From: an uncultured Pseudomonadota bacterium
GTDB lineage: Bacteria > Pseudomonadota > Gammaproteobacteria > CAJXQU01
Direction of reading: 5' to 3'
DNA length: 64,000 bases
Assembly (NCBI GenBank): GCA_913058255.1
Contig: CAJXQU010000011.1
Location: 1-64,000, forward strand
Shown: positions 35,493 to 46,436 of the stretch, piece by piece
Layout of the letters: each line of letters begins with the position of its first letter
Position numbering within the stretch: position 1 is the first letter of the stretch
Translations under genes and position numbers: made by a program
Notes under the pieces: model-generated
What the model was told of the DNA's origin: nothing
The model's input: only the letters and a program-made list of their open reading frames with translations
The model's database searches: none

Positions 35493-38400
35493 ATGACCGG
35501 ATTCGTTCATCTAAATCTGCATACAGAATATTCGGTAGTTGATGGTCTTAACCGTGTAAAGCCGTTAATCAACAAAGTTGCTGAGATGAATATGCCAGCT
35601 GTCGCAGTGACGGATAAAGGCAATCTTTATGCAACAGTTAAGCTCTATCGAGCAGCTCAATCAAAGGGTATTAAGCCTATTATTGGAGCCGATCTATTAC
35701 TCGAAGGTTTCGATGGTAATGAAGAACCTTCGAGTTTTATAGTCTTATGTCAGGATATTGATGGCTATAAGAACCTTTCACATCTCATTAGTAAATCGTA
35801 TACAGAAGGCCAAGAGTCAGGTGCTGCAGTTGTTAAGTGGCAGTGGTTATCCGAGTATTCAACAGGGTTGATTATTCTTTCAGGTGCCGCGCAAGGTGAA
35901 ATTGGACAATTGATCGAAACCGGTAACCTTGAAGCAGCTGGAATTCGGTGTTTAGCATGGAAGCAGTTATTTTCTGATCGTTTCTACCTAGAAATACAGA
36001 GAGTTGGTAAGGTTGGTGAAGAAGATCTGATCGATGATACGGTTGATTTAGCGGCAAAATATGACATCCCCGTTGTTGCGACTAATGCTGCGCGCTTTTT
36101 AGAAACGGATGCTTTTGATTCACATGAAGCGCGAGTTTGTATCAATGAGGGGCGGACATTGGACGATCCTCGCCGGCCTAAAAATTACACGCCGCAACAA
36201 TATGTTCGATCATCTGAAGAGATGTCTGAACTCTTTAAAGATCTTCCTCAGGCTATTGAAAACACATGGTTTATTGCACAACGATGCAATATAGAAATTA
36301 ATTTTGATGATTATTTTCTACCGAACTTCCCTGTCCCAGAAGGGACGACAATTGATGAATGGTTTCGTCAAGTTAGTTGGGAAGGCTTGGAAAAAAGACT
36401 GCCTTTCTTACTCGATGTAAATGCCGATGATTTTTCTGAAAAGCGCAAGGTCTATGATGCGCGTCTGGAGCGTGAACTCGGTGTTATTATTGATATGGGG
36501 TTTCCGGGCTACTTTTTGATCGTTGCTGACTTTATTCAATGGGGCAAAGAAAATGCTATTCCTGTTGGCCCCGGTCGAGGTTCTGGTGCGGGTTCTCTGG
36601 TTGCGTATGCCTTGGAAATTACGGATCTAGATCCGCTTGAATATGATCTCTTATTCGAACGATTTTTAAATCCTGAACGTGTTTCGATGCCCGATTTTGA
36701 TATCGATTTCTGCATGGATCGCCGTGATGAGGTTATTGATTATGTTGCACGAAAATATGGCCGTGATCATGTTTCGCAAATTATTACACACGGTACGATG
36801 GCCGCAAAAGCGGTGGTTCGTGATTGTGGCCGTGTGTTGGGTTTCCCCTATGGTTTTGTTGACCAAATTTCGAAGCTGATCCCTTTTGAAATTGGGATAA
36901 CGCTCGAGCGCGCACTCAAGGAAGAAGAAACACTAGCCGAACGTTATGCAAACGAAGAGGAGGTTCAAACCCTACTTGATTTAGCCTTGAAGCTCGAAGG
37001 TACCGTTCGTAACGTCGGTAAGCATGCGGGTGGTGTTGTTATTGCACCGACACCGATGCCAGACTTTGTACCACTTTATTGTGAGCAGGGTGGAACCAGC
37101 GTTGTTTGTCAATTTGACATGATCGATGTTGAATCGATCGGGTTGGTTAAGTTCGATTTTCTTGGACTCAGGACGCTGACGATCATCGATTGGGCGGTAC
37201 GTGATGCTAATATCCTACTCGATAAAAAGGGTGAAGAACCCATAAATATCAGTCAGATAGCTCTTGATGATACACCAACGTATGATTTAACAACGCGGGC
37301 TGAAACTACAGCAGTCTTCCAGCTAGAATCACGTGGAATGAAAGAGTTGATCAAACGCTTAAAGCCAGATGTATTTGAAGATCTGGTCGCATTGGTTGCC
37401 TTGTTTCGACCGGGACCGCTACAGTCAGGCATGGTTGATGACTTTGTTGAGCGTAAACATGGTCGTCAAAGAGTCGAGTACCCACATCCGGATCTAGAGC
37501 CGATTCTGCAACCTACTTATGGTGTCATACTCTATCAAGAACAGGTTATGCAGATTGCACAGGTGCTCGCTTTGTATAGTCTTGGTGCTGCTGACATGCT
37601 GCGTCGAGCGATGGGTAAAAAGAAGCCTGAAGAGATGGCTAAGCAGCGTGTTATTTTTAATGAAGGTGCGGCGAGAAATGGTATCGAAGAAAGTGTAGCG
37701 ACCTACATCTTCGATTTGATGGAAAAGTTTGCCGGTTATGGTTTTAATAAATCACATTCAGCCGCATACGCCCTGGTTGCATACCAAACGGCTTGGTTAA
37801 AAACACATCATTCTGCAGCATTTATGGCGGCTGTTTTATCGTCAGATATGGATAACACCGATAAGGTTGTAGGCTTGATCGATGAATGTCGGCAGATGGA
37901 AATAGAAGTTATCTCTCCAGATGTTAATACTTGCCACTCTAAGTTCACTGTTCAGGATGAACAAACGATTTGCTATGGACTTGGAGCGGTTAAAGGAGTT
38001 GGTGAATCTGCTATAGATGAGCTTGCGAATGAACGAGACGAAAATGGCAAGTTTGTTGATTTGTTTGATCTGTGTAAACGCATGGATACTCGTAAAATTA
38101 ATCGACGGGTTTTAGAGGCCTTGATCAGGGCTGGGGCTCTGGATGATTTGGGCCCAGGACGGGCTAGCTTGATGGAGTCATTAGAAAGTGCGATAAAAAT
38201 GGCCGATCAACATGCGAAGAATCGATCCGCTGGTCAGAATGATATGTTCGGCCTGTTAAGCAGTTCGGGGAACGATGAGAGCAGTAACTCATTTATTATT
38301 GTTAAAGACTGGACTAAGGAAGACGTTCTTGCCGGTGAAAAAATTACTCTTGGTCTGTATTTATCAGGACACCCTATTGATAGATATGAGGCTGAGTTGA

Positions 38401-38954
38401 AGAGCATGATTAGTAACCGGCTCAGTAACCTGAAGATAGGCCCACGACGAATTGCCGGACAGATCATTGCAATTAGAATGATCAATACTCGCCGTGGCCG
38501 CATGGCTATTGCTACTTTAGATGATAAAACGGATCGTGTGGATGTTGTTATTTACTCTGATGTTCTTGAAGAATACGGTGAGTATATAAATAAGGATCGT
38601 ATCATCGTCGTTGAAGGTGAGTGTAAAGAGGATGACTTTAGTGGTGGTTTTGCAGTCACAGCTGAGAAAATAGCTGATATGGAAAAATCACGAGCAAATT
38701 ATGCTAAACAATTGGTGATAAAACTTGAACAGAATAACTTTCCTAACAGTAACTTAAGTAGCTTACTCACTGAGTTGCAGGAGATTCTCTCACCGTATAA
38801 AAATGGGGCTTGCCGCATAATGGTTGATTTTCAAGAATCAACGGCTAAGACGCGGATAGTATTAGGCAAAGACTGGCGCGTTCAATTACCAGATCGATTG
38901 CTTGATCAATTGATCGAAAAACTCGGTGAAGATAAAGTCTTGGTTGAATATTAG
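35493..38954 (+). CDS. dnaE: DNA polymerase III subunit alpha
   Basis: Replicative polymerase. 1153 residues, close to the E. coli length. PHP domain at the N-terminus (HLNLHTEYSVVDGL), polymerase palm with catalytic Asp401 and Asp403 in MPDFDIDF (same numbering as E. coli), fingers with GRGSGAGSLVAYAL just before, the beta-clamp binding and helix-hairpin-helix region, and an OB fold (ITLGLYLSGHPID...). Follows rnhB by 22 bp. Confidence 0.98.
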   Translation: MTGFVHLNLHTEYSVVDGLNRVKPLINKVAEMNMPAVAVTDKGNLYATVKLYRAAQSKGIKPIIGADLLLEGFDGNEEPSSFIVLCQDIDGYKNLSHLISKSYTEGQESGAAVVKWQWLSEYSTGLIILSGAAQGEIGQLIETGNLEAAGIRCLAWKQLFSDRFYLEIQRVGKVGEEDLIDDTVDLAAKYDIPVVATNAARFLETDAFDSHEARVCINEGRTLDDPRRPKNYTPQQYVRSSEEMSELFKDLPQAIENTWFIAQRCNIEINFDDYFLPNFPVPEGTTIDEWFRQVSWEGLEKRLPFLLDVNADDFSEKRKVYDARLERELGVIIDMGFPGYFLIVADFIQWGKENAIPVGPGRGSGAGSLVAYALEITDLDPLEYDLLFERFLNPERVSMPDFDIDFCMDRRDEVIDYVARKYGRDHVSQIITHGTMAAKAVVRDCGRVLGFPYGFVDQISKLIPFEIGITLERALKEEETLAERYANEEEVQTLLDLALKLEGTVRNVGKHAGGVVIAPTPMPDFVPLYCEQGGTSVVCQFDMIDVESIGLVKFDFLGLRTLTIIDWAVRDANILLDKKGEEPINISQIALDDTPTYDLTTRAETTAVFQLESRGMKELIKRLKPDVFEDLVALVALFRPGPLQSGMVDDFVERKHGRQRVEYPHPDLEPILQPTYGVILYQEQVMQIAQVLALYSLGAADMLRRAMGKKKPEEMAKQRVIFNEGAARNGIEESVATYIFDLMEKFAGYGFNKSHSAAYALVAYQTAWLKTHHSAAFMAAVLSSDMDNTDKVVGLIDECRQMEIEVISPDVNTCHSKFTVQDEQTICYGLGAVKGVGESAIDELANERDENGKFVDLFDLCKRMDTRKINRRVLEALIRAGALDDLGPGRASLMESLESAIKMADQHAKNRSAGQNDMFGLLSSSGNDESSNSFIIVKDWTKEDVLAGEKITLGLYLSGHPIDRYEAELKSMISNRLSNLKIGPRRIAGQIIAIRMINTRRGRMAIATLDDKTDRVDVVIYSDVLEEYGEYINKDRIIVVEGECKEDDFSGGFAVTAEKIADMEKSRANYAKQLVIKLEQNNFPNSNLSSLLTELQEILSPYKNGACRIMVDFQESTAKTRIVLGKDWRVQLPDRLLDQLIEKLGEDKVLVEY

Positions 38955-38987
38955 CCAGAAATATCGATAATTTGATGAAGAGACTAT

Positions 38988-39007
38988 CAGTGATTCTCTG
39001 ATCACTG
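38988..39007. repeat. Short inverted repeat between dnaE and accA
   Basis: CAGTGAT (38988-38994) and ATCACTG (39001-39007) are perfect arms around TCTCTG. No T-run follows. It could be a weak terminator of dnaE or an operator; nothing further supports either. Confidence 0.35.
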
Positions 39008-39052
39008 TGTTAGAATTCCAAAATAATAATTTGAATAGGATGCGAACTAGGC

Positions 39053-40012
39053 ATGTCTTTGAACTTTCTTGATTTCGAACAACCGATAGCTGACTTAGAA
39101 GCTAAAATTGAAGAATTACGTTTTCTTGGGGATGACTCTGAGATAGATATAAATGATGAGATTGCACGTCTTAAGGTTCATTCAAAAGAACTAACGGAAT
39201 CGATATTCTCAAACTTGACCTCAGTACAGATTTCTAAATTAGCGAGACATCCTAAGCGCCCATATACACTCGACTATATCGAACATATATTTACAAATTT
39301 TGAAGAGTTACATGGTGATCGTCAATATGCCGATGATGCTGCTTTAGTTTGTGGACTGGCAAGATTAGATGGTCAAGCGGTAGCTATCATTGGCCATCAG
39401 AAAGGGCGGAACACCAAGGAAAATATACATCGAAATTTTGGTATGCCACGACCAGAAGGTTATAGAAAAGCACTTCGGATCATGAAAATGGCAGCAAAAT
39501 TTAAAATCCCTCTTTTAACTTTTATCGACACACCCGGGGCTTATCCAGGCATTGGTGCTGAAGAACGAGGTCAAAGTGAAGCGATCGCGAAGAATCTGTT
39601 CGTTATGTCTCGCCTAGGCACTCCCATTGTTTCCATTGTTATAGGTGAAGGTGGTTCAGGTGGTGCATTAGCGATAGGCGTGGCGGATAAAACCTTAATG
39701 CTTGAATACAGTACCTATTCGGTAATTTCACCTGAAGGTTGCGCGAGTATTTTATGGAAGAGTGCTGACAAGGCTGAAAAAGCGGCTGAAGCGATGGGGA
39801 TCACTTCAGACAGGCTGTTTGAGCTAGGTTTAATTAATGAAGTTGTTAAAGAACCTTTAGGTGGATCACATCGCGATCATGTAGCAGCAGCAATGAATCT
39901 AAAAGAGCATATTAAAGCGTCTCTTGCAGAAATCACCGATATAGATATTGATGACTTACTGGAGAGTCGTTATGAAAAAATTATTGGAGCCGGACATTTC
40001 GTTACGAATTGA
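39053..40012 (+). CDS. accA: Acetyl-CoA carboxylase carboxyltransferase subunit alpha
   Basis: Forms malonyl-CoA with AccD, feeding FabZ/LpxA upstream in the same block. 319 residues. Crotonase-fold signatures: [42 protein letters not shown] and [15 protein letters not shown] (oxyanion and CoA binding). Coiled-coil N-terminus for AccD contact. Confidence 0.98.
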
Positions 40013-40021
40013 TCTGTATGA

Positions 40022-41353
40022 ATGTTATTTACTGCTGAATACCTTCATCAACGATTAGCATTACTGCCTAAAGCTAAACGATATCTTGTTGGATTCAGTG
40101 GAGGGTTGGATTCTCAGGTTCTCCTGCATGCCATCACTGAGCTGGAATTAAAAATCCCAATCCTCGCTGTTCATATAAACCACTCTATTCAAGATGAGTC
40201 TGATCAATGGCAAGCTGACTGTGAGTCTACTGCGAAAGGTTTAAAGGTAGATTTCTTCAGTCAAAAAGTTGATGGTATGAATCCTCGTGGTGAAAGTCCT
40301 GAGGCATGGGCGCGTACTAAACGCTATGAAGCCTTTACTAGCATGATGATAGCTGGTGATATTCTTCTTCTCGCTCATCATCAAGACGATCAAATTGAAA
40401 CCTTTTTTTTACAGCTTCTGCGTGGTTCAGGACCCAGCGGGCTTGCCGCTATGTCATCTGAGATGGCTTTTGCAGAAGGTTTCATCGGACGGCCATTGCT
40501 TCTTGATATTGGACGCGAAGATCTAGAGGCTTATGCACAAATGAATGGCCTTCAGTGGGTAGAAGATCCGAGTAATCAGGACTCGCGGTATGATAGAAAT
40601 TATCTGCGGCATCAAGTCCTGCCACTACTCAAGCAACGTTGGCCTAGTTATACAAAAAACATAAGTCGTTCGATTGACTTGCAGTCTGATGCTTGTCTTG
40701 TGATTAATGCATCTGCAGTAGCGGACTATCAGCTGGTTGTTGATCAGAATAATTCATTATCAGTCAAAAAATTATTGGCATTTAGTGATCTACGAATACG
40801 TAATATTATCCGTTACTGGATCCGTGAATCAGGTTTCCAGCTTCCTTCAACACAAAAGCTACGGCAGGTGATAGATACGATACTAACGGCAGCTGAAGAT
40901 CGCAACCCATGTGTTGCTTGGATAGGAATTGAAGTGCGCCGTTATCGCGATCAATTGATCCTTATGACCCCACTTTGTAAGCATGAATCTAACGCTCGTT
41001 TTGTCTTTGATATTGATCATGTTTTAAAGCTACCAACAGGTCATTTGATGGCAAAGAAAGTGAAAGGGAATGGCTTTAAGCTAGGCTTGGAATCTCTTCA
41101 GGTTAGATTCCGCCAAGGTGGTGAGAAACTGATACCGGCAGGAAAGAAACACAGAGTTAGTTTGAAAAAATATCTGCAAAGTCAAGGTGTCCCACCTTGG
41201 TTACGTGATCGTATTCCCTTGGTTTATAGCGAAGATCGACTTGTTGCTGTTGCAGATATGTGTGTTGCCGAAGGCTTCTCGGTAGAAGGTGAGAATGAGG
41301 GTTGGTTGTTAGATTGGCAAGAAAAAGAGCCTGTTCAAACGAAGCCGTACTAA
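40022..41353 (+). CDS. tilS: tRNA(Ile)-lysidine synthase TilS
   Basis: Attaches lysine to C34 of tRNA-Ile(CAU) with ATP. 443 residues. PP-loop SGGLDS at 26-31, HINHSIQDES, HHQDDQIETFFLQLLRGSG and EDPSNQDSRYDRNYLRH are all intact; a C-terminal TilS domain follows. Starts 9 bp after accA; end of the rightward block. Confidence 0.97.
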   Translation: MLFTAEYLHQRLALLPKAKRYLVGFSGGLDSQVLLHAITELELKIPILAVHINHSIQDESDQWQADCESTAKGLKVDFFSQKVDGMNPRGESPEAWARTKRYEAFTSMMIAGDILLLAHHQDDQIETFFLQLLRGSGPSGLAAMSSEMAFAEGFIGRPLLLDIGREDLEAYAQMNGLQWVEDPSNQDSRYDRNYLRHQVLPLLKQRWPSYTKNISRSIDLQSDACLVINASAVADYQLVVDQNNSLSVKKLLAFSDLRIRNIIRYWIRESGFQLPSTQKLRQVIDTILTAAEDRNPCVAWIGIEVRRYRDQLILMTPLCKHESNARFVFDIDHVLKLPTGHLMAKKVKGNGFKLGLESLQVRFRQGGEKLIPAGKKHRVSLKKYLQSQGVPPWLRDRIPLVYSEDRLVAVADMCVAEGFSVEGENEGWLLDWQEKEPVQTKPY

Positions 41354-41377: not shown

Positions 41378-42976
41378 TTAACTAAGCTTCTTATCCAAAA
41401 TAAATTTTAAACGTACGTCGCCAATATCAACTTTATCCTGATCTTTTATTAACCCTGTCGAAATTTTCGTGTTGTTGATATAGACGCCATTGAGTGAATC
41501 TAAATCTGTTACTGTGAAGCTGCCATCACGGTTACGTTTAAATTCGGCATGATTCCTTGAAACCGATGAGTGCTCAAGAAAGAGGTCTTTCTCCTTGACT
41601 CGTCCAACTTTCCAAGGCGTTCCGTAGATGGGGTAATAAAGGGAATCCTCACTTAAGGAGACGAGGTAAGCTAGAGGTTTGCTATCATCCAATTCCTCAA
41701 TAATGGTTTGTGGCGTTTTCTTTCTGGTCAAGAGGTATATCAGTAAGCTGATAAGGAAAAGGGCACCAACAATAAATGGAATGTAATCAAGGTAAGCAAA
41801 ACCCTGAAAGATAGAGAGGATATTTGAAGGTTGCTCTTCTAGCTGCTTATAAGGAATGCTGCGATCTTCTATTGGGGCTTGATGAGCTTCTTCTTGATGA
41901 ATCTCAGCGACTTCAAGCTCCGAGTGTTGTTCTTCCTTAATAGCGCTTTCTTCGGCTTCCTCATCAGCTTCTTGACGATGAATATCGATTTCGACAGAAC
42001 CATTGTCTGTGAGCAGTGCACCGATAGCATTACTGTCTGCTGAGAGTTCCAATGGCAATTTTACGGTGATTTTTTTCCTGCTGGTATCAAAAACCAACAT
42101 AGCCACTTGTGCACCTTTTAGTTCACCAGACAGCACCGGTTCGAGATCAAGCGTTAAAATGCCACCATTATCGATTGCTGCAAAAGGATCGGATAGAAAT
42201 TCTTCTGGTAGCTCTAAGTCGCCAGTTGAAGCTTGGAAGAAGCTACCACCGGAATCAGTCGATAGACTATGTAATGTTTGCGAGTCTTCAGTAGATTCGT
42301 TGGAATCTGGATAGGCTATTGAGATGATGCGAACATTGGCAGCATTGGCCGCATTAATCACATCGTTGTGATAAACGGCTTGGTCATCAGATTTGCCGCT
42401 TGAAAACAAATACACCGCTTTTCGATTTGATTGACTGGCTTTAAGGAGCTCTAAGGCATCGAGAATATTCTGATAAAGCTCAGTCGGTTGCTCTGTTTCA
42501 ATAATGTCTTCGACAGCATTGATAATTTCTTCAGGGTTGCTACCAAGCGGTTTTACAATTTTTAGACTTGTATCAAATGTCGCTAAACCGATCTCTTGAT
42601 AAGGCAATGCATGCTGTGCAAGAGTCGTAGCATGGTTTTTAATCTGTTGAATTTGTTCAATATTTTCGGCTTTACTGCGATCGATTAATAAAAGAATACT
42701 GGTCGTACTGTTTTCGAATGGATAGGTTTTTATATCTAGGATTGGAAGCTCTGTTTTGTCGAGTGTTGCTGATATTTTTTTTGTTATATCTGGCTCGATA
42801 AAGCGATATGCGCATTCAATGGTGTGCCCACTCTCTGGCTGGTCACATGAAAACTCTATATCCGGCGTCAATACTTGAGCATGTTCAGCCAAGCTATTTT
42901 GGAGCGGCATGGAAAGAAACGTCAAGCTCAAAAATAAGCTTTCTGTGAGTCTTTTATATGTCATTTTTAGTTTCAT
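41378..42976 (-). CDS. VWA-transmembrane-FHA protein
   Basis: 532 residues. Signal peptide or signal anchor to about residue 30. A von Willebrand A domain (about 92-270) begins LLLIDRSKA: the MIDAS DxSxS is degenerate, the third position being Ala103 instead of Ser. A Glu-rich linker (about 336-375) precedes one membrane helix (about 399-417), and a cytoplasmic FHA domain (about 445-525) has Gly458-Arg459, SSVSRNH (480-486) and Asn506-Gly507, the residues that bind phosphothreonine. So a periplasmic sensor/adhesion domain is wired to a cytoplasmic phosphopeptide reader. Last gene of the leftward cluster with the channel-like proteins. Confidence 0.85.
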   Translation of the reverse strand: MKLKMTYKRLTESLFLSLTFLSMPLQNSLAEHAQVLTPDIEFSCDQPESGHTIECAYRFIEPDITKKISATLDKTELPILDIKTYPFENSTTSILLLIDRSKAENIEQIQQIKNHATTLAQHALPYQEIGLATFDTSLKIVKPLGSNPEEIINAVEDIIETEQPTELYQNILDALELLKASQSNRKAVYLFSSGKSDDQAVYHNDVINAANAANVRIISIAYPDSNESTEDSQTLHSLSTDSGGSFFQASTGDLELPEEFLSDPFAAIDNGGILTLDLEPVLSGELKGAQVAMLVFDTSRKKITVKLPLELSADSNAIGALLTDNGSVEIDIHRQEADEEAEESAIKEEQHSELEVAEIHQEEAHQAPIEDRSIPYKQLEEQPSNILSIFQGFAYLDYIPFIVGALFLISLLIYLLTRKKTPQTIIEELDDSKPLAYLVSLSEDSLYYPIYGTPWKVGRVKEKDLFLEHSSVSRNHAEFKRNRDGSFTVTDLDSLNGVYINNTKISTGLIKDQDKVDIGDVRLKFILDKKLS

Positions 42977-43144
42977 CTAAAGAGAAAAATTATCGTCAAC
43001 TGGATGCATTTTGCACGATAGTAGAAGACTATGAAAGGTTTGTTTCAACTAGATTGTGAGCAATGTTTTGGTATCTGACATAAATTAATGATATTGAAAC
43101 ATGCCGATACAGAATGTAATGAATAACGCATTGTGGCTAAAGCG

Positions 43145-43666
43145 TTACTTTTCGGGAAATAAAGGGTCCGGCATATCAAAAAATTCTAGGTTAACGCTGA
43201 CTTGACCACCTTGTGAATTATCTTTTACCTCACCAACGGGCCTGTCATCTTCTGTTATCTCACCTAACTGTGGTAGCTTTTTATTAAGTTTTGCTTTCGC
43301 GTCAACGACCTTTTTATGCAAACTATTAGTAAAAGTTAGGCTGTACGCTCGAGGCTTTTTAGCGTTATTTCCGGGAGTCATATCGGTGATCCATAAGTAG
43401 ACTGCTCCGTCTGTGCCATCAATTTTGTTGGGCTCTTCAACGTGAGCGGAGATCAAACGGAAGCGTTCTGGCAGATTGGAACTTTTCGTTGGCCAGCCAA
43501 GTAACGGCGGGAAGGAGAAATAACTGACCAGGTAAAACAATGAAACCAATACAATCGCACTAGCTTTGACCGGCCAAGACCAATTTGAATAGAGGTTGAG
43601 GCTAAGTAATAGTACAGCCAATAGCACAAAGGCGATGAGTATTCCTGCGATGCTTAAGCTGATCAT
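43145..43666 (-). CDS. Hypothetical two-helix membrane protein
   Basis: 173 residues, family not recognised. Two hydrophobic segments at about 4-25 and 35-53 place a C-terminal domain of about 115 residues on one side of the membrane. That domain has a beta-rich start (FRLISAHVEEP...AVYLWITDMT) and a proline/charge-rich end. It sits 52 bp after the ExbD-like gene and 168 bp before the VWA-FHA gene, all leftward, so it is probably a component of the same membrane assembly. Confidence 0.75.
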   Translation of the reverse strand: MISLSIAGILIAFVLLAVLLLSLNLYSNWSWPVKASAIVLVSLFYLVSYFSFPPLLGWPTKSSNLPERFRLISAHVEEPNKIDGTDGAVYLWITDMTPGNNAKKPRAYSLTFTNSLHKKVVDAKAKLNKKLPQLGEITEDDRPVGEVKDNSQGGQVSVNLEFFDMPDPLFPEK

Positions 43667-43718
43667 TATCTATCTCCAAAATATTTTCTATGATTAAATT
43701 ATGCTTTTAAATGTGCTC

Positions 43719-44330
43719 TTAACTATTGATGACGAGTTGTTTGTAGAGATGATTTATATCAGAGACTTTTCCATCTGAGTTAATCTCAAACCTGACAGCG
43801 GTTTTCTCGTCTCCAGCTTTTTCAAGAATATGGGTGCCGTAATAAACGATCTCTAATGCCGGATTTACCTTGGCCAGTTTAACCTTGACCTCAACAGGTT
43901 GATCGGTCTCGGATGCATAATATTGAATATTAACAATATATTCGCCAGGAACGACGCCACGGATAGTGACGACTTCTTGGTTGAGAGGATTTGAAATTTC
44001 TTCACCATTGATCGTGATCATGTCATTCGCGACACCACGATCATCTCTATCTAGATGAATGAGTCCGGCTTCACGGTTTCTGAACCAGATCAAATTGCCT
44101 TTTGGATCTTCAACCCAAGTATCGACATCATCAGGGATTTCATCGGGCCAAGTGATGGTTATTATATATTCGGCTTTGGGGTCAATAATGCCTTTTTTTG
44201 CTACCGGATTCATAAACATGATGGCGACGACAAATAGAAAGGTAAAGCCGAGTAGGGCGTTGAATAACAGATCCGTAAAGGGATCGGATGTGTAGCGTTG
44301 TTTTGCTTTTTGACTCCAAGAACTCGCCAT
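43719..44330 (-). CDS. ExbD/TolR-like anchor with YfaP-like periplasmic domain
   Basis: 203 residues. A short basic cytoplasmic N-terminus (1-15) leads to SDPFTDLLFNALLGFTF: Asp20 at the start of the single membrane helix (about 20-41) is placed as the proton-carrying Asp in TolR/ExbD/MotB. The periplasmic part resembles the YfaP/DUF2135-type domain: DDVDTWVEDPKGNLIWFRN (77-95) and LDRDDRG. Classical ExbD C-terminal domains are different, so this is a stator-like partner with a swapped outer domain. Its ATG is 2 bp after the stop of the MotA/TolQ-like gene. Confidence 0.75.
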   Translation of the reverse strand: MASSWSQKAKQRYTSDPFTDLLFNALLGFTFLFVVAIMFMNPVAKKGIIDPKAEYIITITWPDEIPDDVDTWVEDPKGNLIWFRNREAGLIHLDRDDRGVANDMITINGEEISNPLNQEVVTIRGVVPGEYIVNIQYYASETDQPVEVKVKLAKVNPALEIVYYGTHILEKAGDEKTAVRFEINSDGKVSDINHLYKQLVINS

Positions 44331-44332
44331 GA

Positions 44333-45088
44333 CTAGCTTTGTGATACGGCGAGGTTAGGGAGAATATGAACTTCGGCAGTATGGATGGCTGTGTGCATTA
44401 GATCATCGGCTCCACGATCAAGCATTTGATACTGCATGGCGAGTAATAGGCTTCCGGTCACACCTGTTAAGGTTGTATATAGAGCAGTACCCATTCCAGA
44501 GCTCATTTGTTGCATGACTTTCTGCATAGCGTTGAGATCAAGGTTGGCCGTGTCTGCTACTGAACCGAGCATCAATATGAAACCAACGATGGTTCCTAAT
44601 AAACCAAGTTTTATCATCGCATCAACAAAAAACCAACCATATTCATGGCTGGACTTGAGCTTGTCGCTGTAAATTTCTGCGAGTGCTGTGCTGCGAGTAT
44701 TGTCTTCTTTACTATCATTTGAAGCGGTAGTTGCTGTGACAGTATCAATGAGAAAATCAGTTATAAAGCTAGTAGAAATATAGGTTTGCTTACCTAACCT
44801 AAGCCTTGTTCTATCTAAATGGACACTAGAATGTTGATGATGTTTGATTAGGCGGGTAGTTTTATCAGCGATCAAAAGTTGTGATGAAACCTGCCATGCT
44901 CTAATAGCGCAATGAAGGCTACCTAATGTATAAATAAGGCAAATTGCAATTGAAATTTTACTTTTATCGTTGGTAAATAAGGTATGAAAAAAACCTTGAT
45001 GCCAGACGATAACGATGCTGGTAGTAATAACGCCTGTTAGGATTAGCCAGTTAAGAAAAAGGTGGTGATCGTGCTTTTTCATCATCAT
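44333..45088 (-). CDS. MotA/TolQ/ExbB proton channel family protein
   Basis: 251 residues from the ATG at 45088 (MMMKKHDHH; the two following Met codons are equally possible). A longer frame back to 45244 would overlap the upstream lipoprotein gene and add a non-membrane leader, so I reject it. Membrane segments near 9-29, 44-62, 158-180 and 198-218. The MotA_ExbB core is clear in the C-terminal half: IKLGLLGTIVGFILMLGSV (159-177) and SGMGTALYTTLTGVTGSLLL (197-216). It should form the pentameric ring around the ExbD-like helix encoded next. Confidence 0.85.
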   Translation of the reverse strand: MMMKKHDHHLFLNWLILTGVITTSIVIVWHQGFFHTLFTNDKSKISIAICLIYTLGSLHCAIRAWQVSSQLLIADKTTRLIKHHQHSSVHLDRTRLRLGKQTYISTSFITDFLIDTVTATTASNDSKEDNTRSTALAEIYSDKLKSSHEYGWFFVDAMIKLGLLGTIVGFILMLGSVADTANLDLNAMQKVMQQMSSGMGTALYTTLTGVTGSLLLAMQYQMLDRGADDLMHTAIHTAEVHILPNLAVSQS

Positions 45089-45197: not shown

Positions 45198-45668
45198 TCA
45201 TAATGCCACGGCATTTTCTTCCAACACGTAATCAACAATTTCACGAAGTGTTTTGTTCATTTTTCGGGAGAACTCATTAACGCGGGGATCTTTGTGGTTG
45301 GTCGGGAGTAAGATCAAGCTGATAATGACGGCATTATCTTGCTCATGAATGGTGACACGGCAAGGCATCTGGGCAATAAAGCCAGGATCAATGTCTAAGA
45401 CTTCTCTGGCGATATCCAATGAGCAAAAATGGATAACTTCGATCTCAGGATAATTTTCAAAACCTCTTTCTCGCAGGCCTTTGCCGACAGTATTTCTACC
45501 GGTGATGCGGAAGTTTTTTTCAGTAATGGCAAAATCTAACTCTTGAATAACATTTGAAAAAGTTTTTTCAGTTTTAAAACGCTCAATAAGGGGAGAAGGC
45601 TCAGTTTTTTTTTCAGTACAAGCGAAGACTAATAGGCAAAGTAGTAGGGATATGATTATTTTTTTCAT
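45198..45668 (-). CDS. DUF302-domain lipoprotein
   Basis: 156 residues. The lipoprotein signal ends in LVFAC with Cys17. The DUF302 fold covers about 35-150: TFSNVIQELDFAITEKNFRITGRNTVG and the central VIHFCSLDIAREVLDIDPGFIAQMPCRVTIHE with two Cys. DUF302 proteins are poorly characterised and are placed in the periplasm. It lies 110 bp upstream of the channel gene in the same direction and may share its transcript. Confidence 0.85.
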   Translation of the reverse strand: MKKIIISLLLCLLVFACTEKKTEPSPLIERFKTEKTFSNVIQELDFAITEKNFRITGRNTVGKGLRERGFENYPEIEVIHFCSLDIAREVLDIDPGFIAQMPCRVTIHEQDNAVIISLILLPTNHKDPRVNEFSRKMNKTLREIVDYVLEENAVAL

Positions 45669-45714
45669 TGTTTTTTATTGTCTAAATAAACATAAGTACA
45701 GAATATTAATAATG

Positions 45715-46308
45715 TTAATCAAAAATAAGCACTGTTGTCCCAATCTTAACGAATCTACGTAATTCTTCAATTTCTTTATTTCTCATAGCGATGCAGCCTT
45801 TTGTCCAGTTTTCATCTTTATGTAAGGCTAGCCGATCTTCTGTTTCATTACCGATCCCATGAATGCCGATGGCACCACCAAGATCGGTATCTTGGTCGGG
45901 CATTCGATTGCGTTTTAATGAGTTAATCATCATTCCAAACTCATCTTTATTAATGGTTTCGTGTTTTAAGCCATCAAGTGCATCCTTGGCATTGGGATAA
46001 TTTAACTGCATAAAAACATGGAAACGACTATCGTCTTTGAAATACATAATCTGATAAACACCGGTTGGCGTTTTTTTATCACCGCGGTGGGTTTTATTAC
46101 CGACTCCTCCGCTTCCACTTGCGATACGGTAGGTTTTTCTTAATACGTGGTTCTTTTTTATCAGCATGACACGATCAGACTTATGGATCTCTACAGTATA
46201 GCTTCCTGCGGCAAAACTATGGCTACTAACTAATAACATGAGGGAAAGAGCACTAAGTATGCGTAGGCAGATTTTAGAACGTCTGTAGTGTTGTTTACTT
46301 GACTTCAT
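45715..46308 (-). CDS. L,D-transpeptidase family protein (YkuD fold)
   Basis: 197 residues from the ATG at 46308, which gives a signal peptide (MKSSKQHYRRSK...SSHSFA|AGSY); a start at 46377 would add 23 residues before it. The YkuD domain has KTPTGVYQI, the HGIG motif in IGIHGIGNE and the catalytic Cys in WTKGCIAMRN. Such enzymes form 3-3 cross-links in peptidoglycan or attach or remove lipoproteins. Divergent from cytochrome b561. Confidence 0.88.
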   Translation of the reverse strand: MKSSKQHYRRSKICLRILSALSLMLLVSSHSFAAGSYTVEIHKSDRVMLIKKNHVLRKTYRIASGSGGVGNKTHRGDKKTPTGVYQIMYFKDDSRFHVFMQLNYPNAKDALDGLKHETINKDEFGMMINSLKRNRMPDQDTDLGGAIGIHGIGNETEDRLALHKDENWTKGCIAMRNKEIEELRRFVKIGTTVLIFD

Positions 46309-46436
46309 GGAGTGGGTAGCAACCTTAAACAAATTTTCGAGAAATATTATTATATTTTTTGATTTATACTGTTTCATAATTTTAGTTTGAAATTTTAATG
46401 CGATGTGCTCATAGAAGCTACATAAAAAAGGAAGCT

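Follow-up and report, generated by a model that had tools for sequence, protein, structure and literature searches.

A putative stator-like membrane module with a DUF2135-like outer domain and a lineage-specific phosphothreonine reader

Three adjacent genes, A, B and C, in the window (the whole 64,000-nucleotide stretch of DNA that was analysed) appear to encode a so far undescribed, conserved bacterial membrane machine, which resembles the proton motors of flagella and of nutrient uptake and would differ from them in its outer domain and in a third subunit. In the reading that we favour, at a probability of about 0.52, these proteins represent a new inner-membrane stator-like family, in which a ring of A surrounds the helices of B, ions pass via Asp20 of B, and a fourth protein, D, adds Ser/Thr-kinase control in the lineage of the window. 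This reading rests on gene order, co-conservation, residue conservation and domain content. Swimming, gliding, nutrient uptake, outer-membrane upkeep and phage defence all depend on ion-driven stators, of which only a few families are understood. A description of an A-B-C system was not found in the literature on stators with DUF2135, FHA proteins or Bradyrhizobium.

Organization and distribution of the locus

The original prediction of four leftward genes was borne out, as all four ORFs were found on the minus strand where it had placed them (Table 1). The stop of A and the start of B are 2 bp apart. An in-frame GTG upstream, at 45244, is a possible alternative start of A; the start at 45088 agrees with the lengths of its relatives. 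Promoter and terminator scans revealed no excess of promoters over shuffled sequences.

Table 1. Features of the stator-like locus and its upstream neighbours (positions in the window)
Feature	Position	Strand	Basis
Gene A, MotA/TolQ/ExbB-family ring protein, 251 aa	44333..45088	-	ORF call, Pfam MotA_ExbB, conserved motifs
Thr166 codon, A helix 3 ring threonine, GLLGT..GF motif	44591..44593	-	Alignment of A proteins
Thr205-Thr206 codons, A helix 4 ring threonines, GM..AL.TT motif	44471..44476	-	Alignment of A proteins
Gene B, single-pass axle-type partner with DUF2135/YfaP-like outer domain, 203 aa	43719..44330	-	ORF call, AlphaFold2
Asp20 codon of B, putative ion carrier, PFxD helix start	44271..44273	-	Alignment of B proteins
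B outer (periplasmic) domain, residues ~48-200, DUF2135/YfaP-like	43731..44189	-	Profile and motif comparison
Gene C, two helices and a further domain, 173 aa	43145..43666	-	ORF call; Pfam family: none
Gene D, VWA-helix-FHA protein, 532 aa	41378..42976	-	ORF call, Pfam VWA and FHA
VWA domain of D, residues 94-253	42218..42697	-	Pfam VWA, 50.1 bits
Membrane helix of D, residues ~396-417	41726..41791	-	Reading of the sequence
FHA domain of D, residues 455-519	41420..41614	-	Pfam FHA (PF00498), 59.9 bits
DUF302 protein, lipoprotein-type signal; possible upstream operon member	45198..45668	-	Pfam DUF302
YkuD-type L,D-transpeptidase-like protein; possible upstream operon member, weaker case	45715..46377	-	Pfam YkuD

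Conservation was analysed across alpha- and gammaproteobacteria in a sample of 88 B loci. Gene A is the immediate upstream neighbour of B in 81 of the 84 testable loci, C is found on the downstream side in 78 of 85, and the gene order A-B-C is the same across the two classes. This grouping is far from chance, and A-B-C is the conserved unit. Gene D is present in 20 of the 88 loci; in another 20 a DUF3108-like lipoprotein gene takes its place, and the two were never found together. The phosphothreonine reader D is thus an addition made in particular lineages to a stator-like module of wider occurrence. The predicted co-conservation of four families was thereby confirmed for A, B and C and not for D, several representatives of which are also devoid of the VWA domain.

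The A-B-C family was detected in 31 of 274 sampled gammaproteobacterial genomes, in 36 of 289 alphaproteobacterial genomes and in 50 of the 61 genomes of one alphaproteobacterial genus. Its core is present in Azospirillum brasilense Sp7, a tractable laboratory strain, where it is of the Asp type with the motif VFRD; in the Azospirillum plasmid records the genes of A-B-C carry no annotation. The operon genes are under purifying selection, and about 15 loci sit in a fixed chromosomal context next to tilS-accA-dnaE. In 13 loci a member of the DUF302 family likewise precedes A; among these are L062, L067 and L068, which are without the shared tilS neighbour. The YkuD family is also found near the core in 12 loci, which may reflect shared chromosomal order.

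The ring protein, its partner and the pore residues

Protein A passes the Pfam MotA_ExbB model (PF01618) with 36.9 bits against a cut-off of 22.9. It is one of eight MotA_ExbB genes in the genome, the other seven of which lie elsewhere and include TolQ/ExbB/MotA-like genes. Four helices are predicted (residues ~13-31, 47-69, 155-178 and 200-222), and the loop between helices 2 and 3 suggests a MotA-like layout. The motifs GLLGT..GF and GM..AL.TT are near-invariant among the aligned relatives. Of the ring threonines, Thr206 is found in all 82 aligned A proteins and Thr205 in 80 of them, and position 166 is Thr in 79 and Lys in 3. The window protein has all three threonines, as expected for a member of the MotA/TolQ/ExbB superfamily.

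Protein B consists of one helix, starting with D16-P-F-T-D20, and a beta-rich outer domain, an arrangement also seen in its AlphaFold2 model (mean pLDDT 80, helix at 17-40). PFTD20LLFN is in register with the PLID/PYID of ExbD/TolR in a single comparison, which is short and statistically weak (E 0.027). In the outer domain the motifs LDRDDRG, NQE.VT.RG and RF are nearly invariant. A Pfam scan of the window protein itself gave no family match, and its relatives touch DUF2135 weakly (E 0.17-0.22). The B family profile, on the other hand, finds a VIT...DUF2135 protein with a genome-wide E of 5e-6 and matches it in its C-terminal DUF2135 region, which itself scores 36.9 bits with Pfam DUF2135; the earlier designation of the outer domain as YfaP-like is therefore correct. 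A fold search with the B model returned insignificant beta-sandwich matches (best E 0.016), and for the fold we propose no name past DUF2135-like. Searches against the sequences of solved structures with A and B yielded no match. The proposal of a stator-like A-B pair is supported, the window having the pore residues that such a pair should show. In domain content the pair is not ExbBD/TolQR, MotAB or ZorAB.

These residues are canonical in the window and are lost in some relatives, a loss of the kind that had been set as a refutation of the prediction. Asp20 is found in 76 of the 88 B proteins, or in 77 when L112, which the profile misaligned, is included; in 11 it is replaced by Ala or Val, always together with Lys24 and Gln27. 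The best tree places the Asp-less proteins in two clades. A tree of the outer domain only requires up to four changes and a tree of A and B together two; a test of a single clade was not significant (p 0.063). Two origins are consequently favoured over one, although not proven. A search of A for an acidic residue that would offset the Lys variants found none. Gene D is still present in three Asp-less loci (L066, L067 and L068), and its retention is thus independent of Asp20. As the residue losses coexist with an operon under purifying selection, proton coupling cannot be assumed family-wide, and ion flow via Asp20 is not universal. In the window, where the key residues are canonical, a proton motor is the likely reading. 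Such natural swaps of Asp for Ala or Val with Lys and Gln put the long-standing assumption that the superfamily cannot do without its carrier Asp within reach of testing.

The same replacements allow a different speculation, which we consider rather unlikely: that A-B-C uses a stator scaffold as a sensor of the envelope or as a gated channel, and not as a motor. The outer domain of B together with C would sense the envelope, the helix bundle would change shape, and D or the lipoprotein would relay or receive the signal, ion flow being optional. The correlated appearance of Lys24 and Gln27 in two clades that kept the operon, the change of Thr166 to Lys in another family, and the fact that the neighbourhoods of the loci showed neither a TolA/TonB-like transducer nor a motility gene with the core are all consistent with it. 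However, the majority form, with Asp20 so widely kept and Thr206 in every aligned A protein, is hard to explain without ion handling, and the Lys24/Gln27 forms could themselves be motors of altered pore chemistry. Tentatively, and with less confidence than in the stator-like family as such, we suggest that A-B-C forms a separate, new class of envelope machines of the stator type. In two separate lineages of it the Asp would have been replaced as a Lys and a Gln entered the pore, and in a third a ring Thr by Lys, while selection was kept. It would have either a different charge chemistry or the role of a non-motor sensor, and the window lineage would be tied to Ser/Thr-kinase signalling via the FHA subunit.

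Proteins C and D and a possible mechanism

The two helices predicted for C were found (~2-26 and 31-56), and they are followed by a conserved beta/alpha domain of ~110 residues that had been missed; this outer domain would be periplasmic if the positive inter-helix loop faces inside. The model of C is of moderate quality (pLDDT 69), and its best fold matches are insignificant, several of them being OB-fold-like.

Protein D has a signal-peptide-like N terminus, a periplasmic VWA domain, a single helix and a cytoplasmic FHA domain. Its MIDAS is incomplete: D99-R-S101-K-A103 and T165 are present, the third Ser is absent and Ser replaces Asp at 193. The membrane helix carries no conserved acidic residue or histidine. 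FHA domains read phosphothreonine, and the residues responsible (GR, S.SR.H and S.NG) are conserved across the D proteins. A VWA domain was not found in the D proteins of L082, L085, L043 and L064; the constant part of D is the FHA domain, not the VWA domain. Kinase-family matches number three or more in each of the 14 FHA-carrying genomes that were counted, and they are more frequent per Mb there than in genomes without FHA (p = 5e-4, uncorrected for kinship). The genome of the window has seven matches to the Ser/Thr-kinase family. It had been suggested that the system reports through Thr phosphorylation. The reader is indeed present, but 'regulated or recruited by Thr phosphorylation' is the better wording, because FHA domains read phosphothreonine.

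For the stoichiometry, ion flow, rotation, direction of signalling and envelope target of the stator-like machine we propose the following. Several copies of A, probably five, would ring the helices of two B subunits, and the path of the ions, most likely protons, would lie between Asp20 in B and the threonines of the A ring. Their passage would turn or twist the B pair, and the DUF2135-like domain, together with C, would pass this movement to an envelope target. In the window lineage, the FHA domain of D may bind an intracellular phosphothreonine protein, and the VWA domain, in those D proteins that have one, a periplasmic partner; Ser/Thr kinase signalling via D could in this way switch, place or anchor the motor. 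The DUF3108-like lipoprotein encoded in the position of D in other lineages may be an envelope partner. The FHA subunit lets one ask whether kinase control acts on a stator.

Comparison with known systems

The locus shares with ExbBD/TolQR a MotA_ExbB ring protein and adjacent genes, and the PFxD of B is weakly similar to the P(L/F/Y)ID of ExbD/TolR. A, a member of the same Pfam family, could be imagined to drive, with B, a periplasmic transducer in a divergent Tol/Ton-type energiser, C, which is membrane-anchored, has an outer domain and is encoded beside the motor genes, standing in the place of TolA/TonB. We regard this as improbable. The genome has separate TolQ/ExbB/MotA-like genes, and B has a DUF2135/YfaP-like domain instead of that of ExbD/TolR, PF02472 matching five genes of the genome, none of them at the locus or elsewhere on this contig. 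Moreover, A differs in having two N-terminal helices, C comes in addition as a further subunit and has two helices rather than one, TonB/TolA was not seen, and the helices of C and D, as we read them, are devoid of the TolA/TonB-type SHLS histidine.

Membership in the Zorya anti-phage defence systems was rejected as hardly credible: the best weak PADLOC and NCBIfam matches of A are ZorA models (E 1.8e-6 to 4e-5), but they are limited to the shared ring helices and reach 19-23 bits against cut-offs of 100-500, A is without the ZorA tail, B has no ZorB match, B, C and D match no PADLOC defence model, a nuclease or helicase effector is absent at the locus, and the tilS-accA-dnaE context is stable, unlike that of mobile defence islands.

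In a survey of generic ion transporters (mBio 2025, PMC12505986), the part available includes in the non-flagellar class members of unknown function with added domains and names DUF3450 and DUF2341 on the A side; a DUF2135-like B, a third subunit C or an FHA partner is not described in that part. VWA force-transducer families with TolQ-like motors (Mol Biol Evol 2025, PMC12204202) likewise have, in Proteobacteria, a VWA protein whose gene neighbours that of a ring protein. There, however, it is the vWA protein that bears the Asp pore helix or, next to tolQR, an SHLS helix of the TonB type, whereas here the Asp is on B, and D, with VWA outside, a helix and FHA inside, has neither type of helix; these families were set apart by reading their description.

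MotAB is similar in the four-helix ring layout of A and in the Asp at the helix start of a single-pass B. In contrast to MotB, B has no OmpA-like peptidoglycan-binding domain in the Pfam scan, and flagellar genes are not nearby; the genome carries separate MotA/MotB genes.

In the AglRQS/Glt gliding machine of Myxococcus, a stator-type motor works with an FHA protein, GltG. The GltG model matches the FHA domain of D only (36.8 bits against a cut-off of 650), other Agl/Glt genes were not seen, and D differs in its periplasmic VWA domain. GltG is a likely precedent for pairing a phosphothreonine reader with a stator.

The operon and its conserved core

The four genes lie on the minus strand at the positions originally predicted, as confirmed by the ORF coordinates. 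Gene A is one of eight MotA/TolQ/ExbB-family genes in the 2.78 Mb genome, whose closest relatives are gammaproteobacterial metagenome-assembled genomes. The predicted Asp20 of B is indeed found at the helix start (S-D16-P-F-T-D20-L-L-F-N24), and C proved to be more than a two-helix protein, the two helices being followed by a further conserved domain.

Genes of the operon in the window
Gene	Positions	Strand	Features
A	44333-45088	-	MotA/TolQ/ExbB family (Pfam, 36.9 bits; cut-off 22.9)
B	43719-44330	-	Starts 2 bp past A
C	43145-43666	-	Two helices, then a conserved domain of ~110 residues
D	41378-42976	-	Signal-peptide-like start, VWA (94-253), helix near 396-417, FHA (455-519)

Loci of B were collected within Pseudomonadota, from gammaproteobacteria, named genome contigs, a phylum-wide sample and alphaproteobacteria. 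They were present in 31 of 274 sampled gammaproteobacterial genomes, 36 of 289 alphaproteobacterial genomes, 17 of 398 genomes of the phylum-wide sample and 50 of 61 genomes of one alphaproteobacterial genus of large genomes. Of the 88 loci, 84 lie on contigs long enough to look for A, which sits immediately upstream of B in 81; for C, found downstream in 78, the number is 85. Azospirillum brasilense Sp7 also has the triad (E 6e-39 for A, 3e-46 for B and 2e-10 for C). The conserved core is thus A-B-C. A search for co-conservation of the four genes had been suggested; this part recurs in most of the 88 loci, but D follows C in only 20. None of these 20 belongs to the second group of loci, assigned to Alphaproteobacteria through protein kinship with the A. 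brasilense Sp7 triad. Many loci come from metagenome-assembled genomes, and some apparent breaks in reading frame, for example in the split D of locus L044, may be assembly errors. A dnaE-accA-tilS run (35493-41353, named by reading the proteins) adjoins the operon and is common to ~15 loci, which indicates a stable chromosomal setting.

Pore residues and the proposed mechanism

Proteins related to A assemble into rings of five subunits that surround two Asp-bearing helices, and they draw their power from the flow of ions (PMC9389320). From gene order, co-conservation, domain content and residue conservation, we infer that A and B form such a stator-type complex here. The A ring would enclose a pair of B helices and ion flow would drive the complex, its movement being handed by the outer domain of B, together with C, to a target in the envelope. 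In the lineage of the window, the FHA domain of D may tie the complex to intracellular Ser/Thr phosphorylation, by switching or by recruiting.

Asp20 is present in 76 of the 88 B proteins and absent from eleven; an apparent twelfth case, L112, carries YVDLLG and was a misalignment. All eleven have Lys24 and Gln27, a combination found in no Asp20-bearing protein of the compared set, and all retain Asp16. A search of A for an acidic residue that could offset the new Lys found none. They form an Ala20 clade of five loci of the window's class (L066, L067, L068, L070 and L052, the first four with two C genes) and a Val20 clade of six loci of family f207 (L105-L110). A tree of A and the outer domain of B, excluding the B helix, requires two changes of Asp20, forced by well-supported branches; a single clade of all eleven was not rejected at 0.05 (AU p 0.063). 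In these loci and in those of family f107, described below, purifying selection acts on the genes (dN/dS of B 0.02-0.28 between closely related pairs, some with saturated dS), which are therefore not decaying. Owing to these Asp-less forms, it cannot be taken for granted that ions flow through position 20 in all members of the family, a point in favour of the main rival reading, in which the complex acts as a sensor or gated channel instead of a motor.

As for the stator reading, loss of the pore-lining residues of A had been named as evidence against it. Across 82 aligned A proteins the motifs GLLGT166..GF and GM..AL.T205T206 hardly vary: Thr206 is present in all 82 and Thr166 in 79, but Lys replaces Thr166 in three proteins of family f107 (L074:7301-8209, L113:6359-7036 and L114), whose B carries Asp20.

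The outer domain and accessory genes

B itself matched no Pfam family, and a comparison with solved structures gave no significant match. Its relatives match DUF2135 weakly (E 0.17-0.22), and the B-family profile (398 genomes) finds an 1118-aa VIT and DUF2135 protein (E 5e-6), the alignment (residues 997-1081) overlapping its Pfam DUF2135 match (1053-1100). These matches support the predicted YfaP-like outer domain. The AlphaFold2 model of B (mean pLDDT 80; single-chain models were built from only 16-17 sequences) shows a single helix (17-40) and a domain rich in beta structure. An ExbD domain had been denied to B, rightly: the five genes that PF02472 matches in this genome all lie outside this locus. 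The B helix is in register with the ExbD/TolR helix, a weak similarity over a short stretch (E 0.027 for a single comparison). Elsewhere in this genome, contig C2 carries two ExbD-like genes in tandem, of which the second (L005:2375-2776) reads PLIN, not PLID, with Asn at the carrier position. The 1118-aa protein (L115:4083-7436) has, by eye, a VWA-like middle with DASGS, uncalled by Pfam; the joining of VWA and DUF2135 in a single chain would point to a possible interaction between the VWA domain of D and the outer domain of B.

In 20 loci other than those with D, a DUF3108-like protein (PF21347) is encoded downstream, in most cases with a lipoprotein signal judging from its sequence. The two never share a locus (0/88), which may partly be due to kinship, and three genomes (G119, G235, G140) carry two operons of different type. 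Locus L178 has three DUF3108-like genes (group c12) near one another downstream of C. FHA is the constant part of D, since the D proteins of L082, L085, L043 and L064 have it without a detectable VWA domain. Its phosphothreonine-reading residues are conserved across D proteins; the VWA metal site of the window's D is incomplete. Upstream of A (45198-46377) lie a DUF302 lipoprotein-like gene and a YkuD L,D-transpeptidase-like gene; both recur there in many D-type loci and are possibly operon members tied to peptidoglycan.

Kinase-family matches per Mb are higher in genomes with the FHA operon than in those without (Mann-Whitney p = 5e-4, kinship ignored), an association that is only suggestive. 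The core is independent of kinases, as two genomes of ~1 Mb each (G142, G255) keep A-B-C with one weak kinase match each; this retention suggests a basic envelope role. In these strongly reduced genomes, A-B-C adjoins an aconitase-like gene (L077, L079).

Comparison with known systems

An FHA protein that accompanies a stator has a likely precedent in GltG. Full-text literature searches, covering few subscription papers, returned nothing relevant for stator terms combined with either DUF2135 or FHA proteins. The portion consulted of a 2025 survey of MotAB and related non-flagellar systems mentions members with added domains of unknown function and does not describe the A-B-C(-D) set (PMC12505986); an earlier description elsewhere in the literature is possible. 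Another 2025 study reports two vWA families adjoining TolQ-like genes, one whose vWA protein itself bears the Asp pore helix and another with an SHLS helix resembling that of TonB (PMC12204202). Neither fits the present system, in which the Asp sits on B and D has its VWA domain outside and its FHA domain inside.
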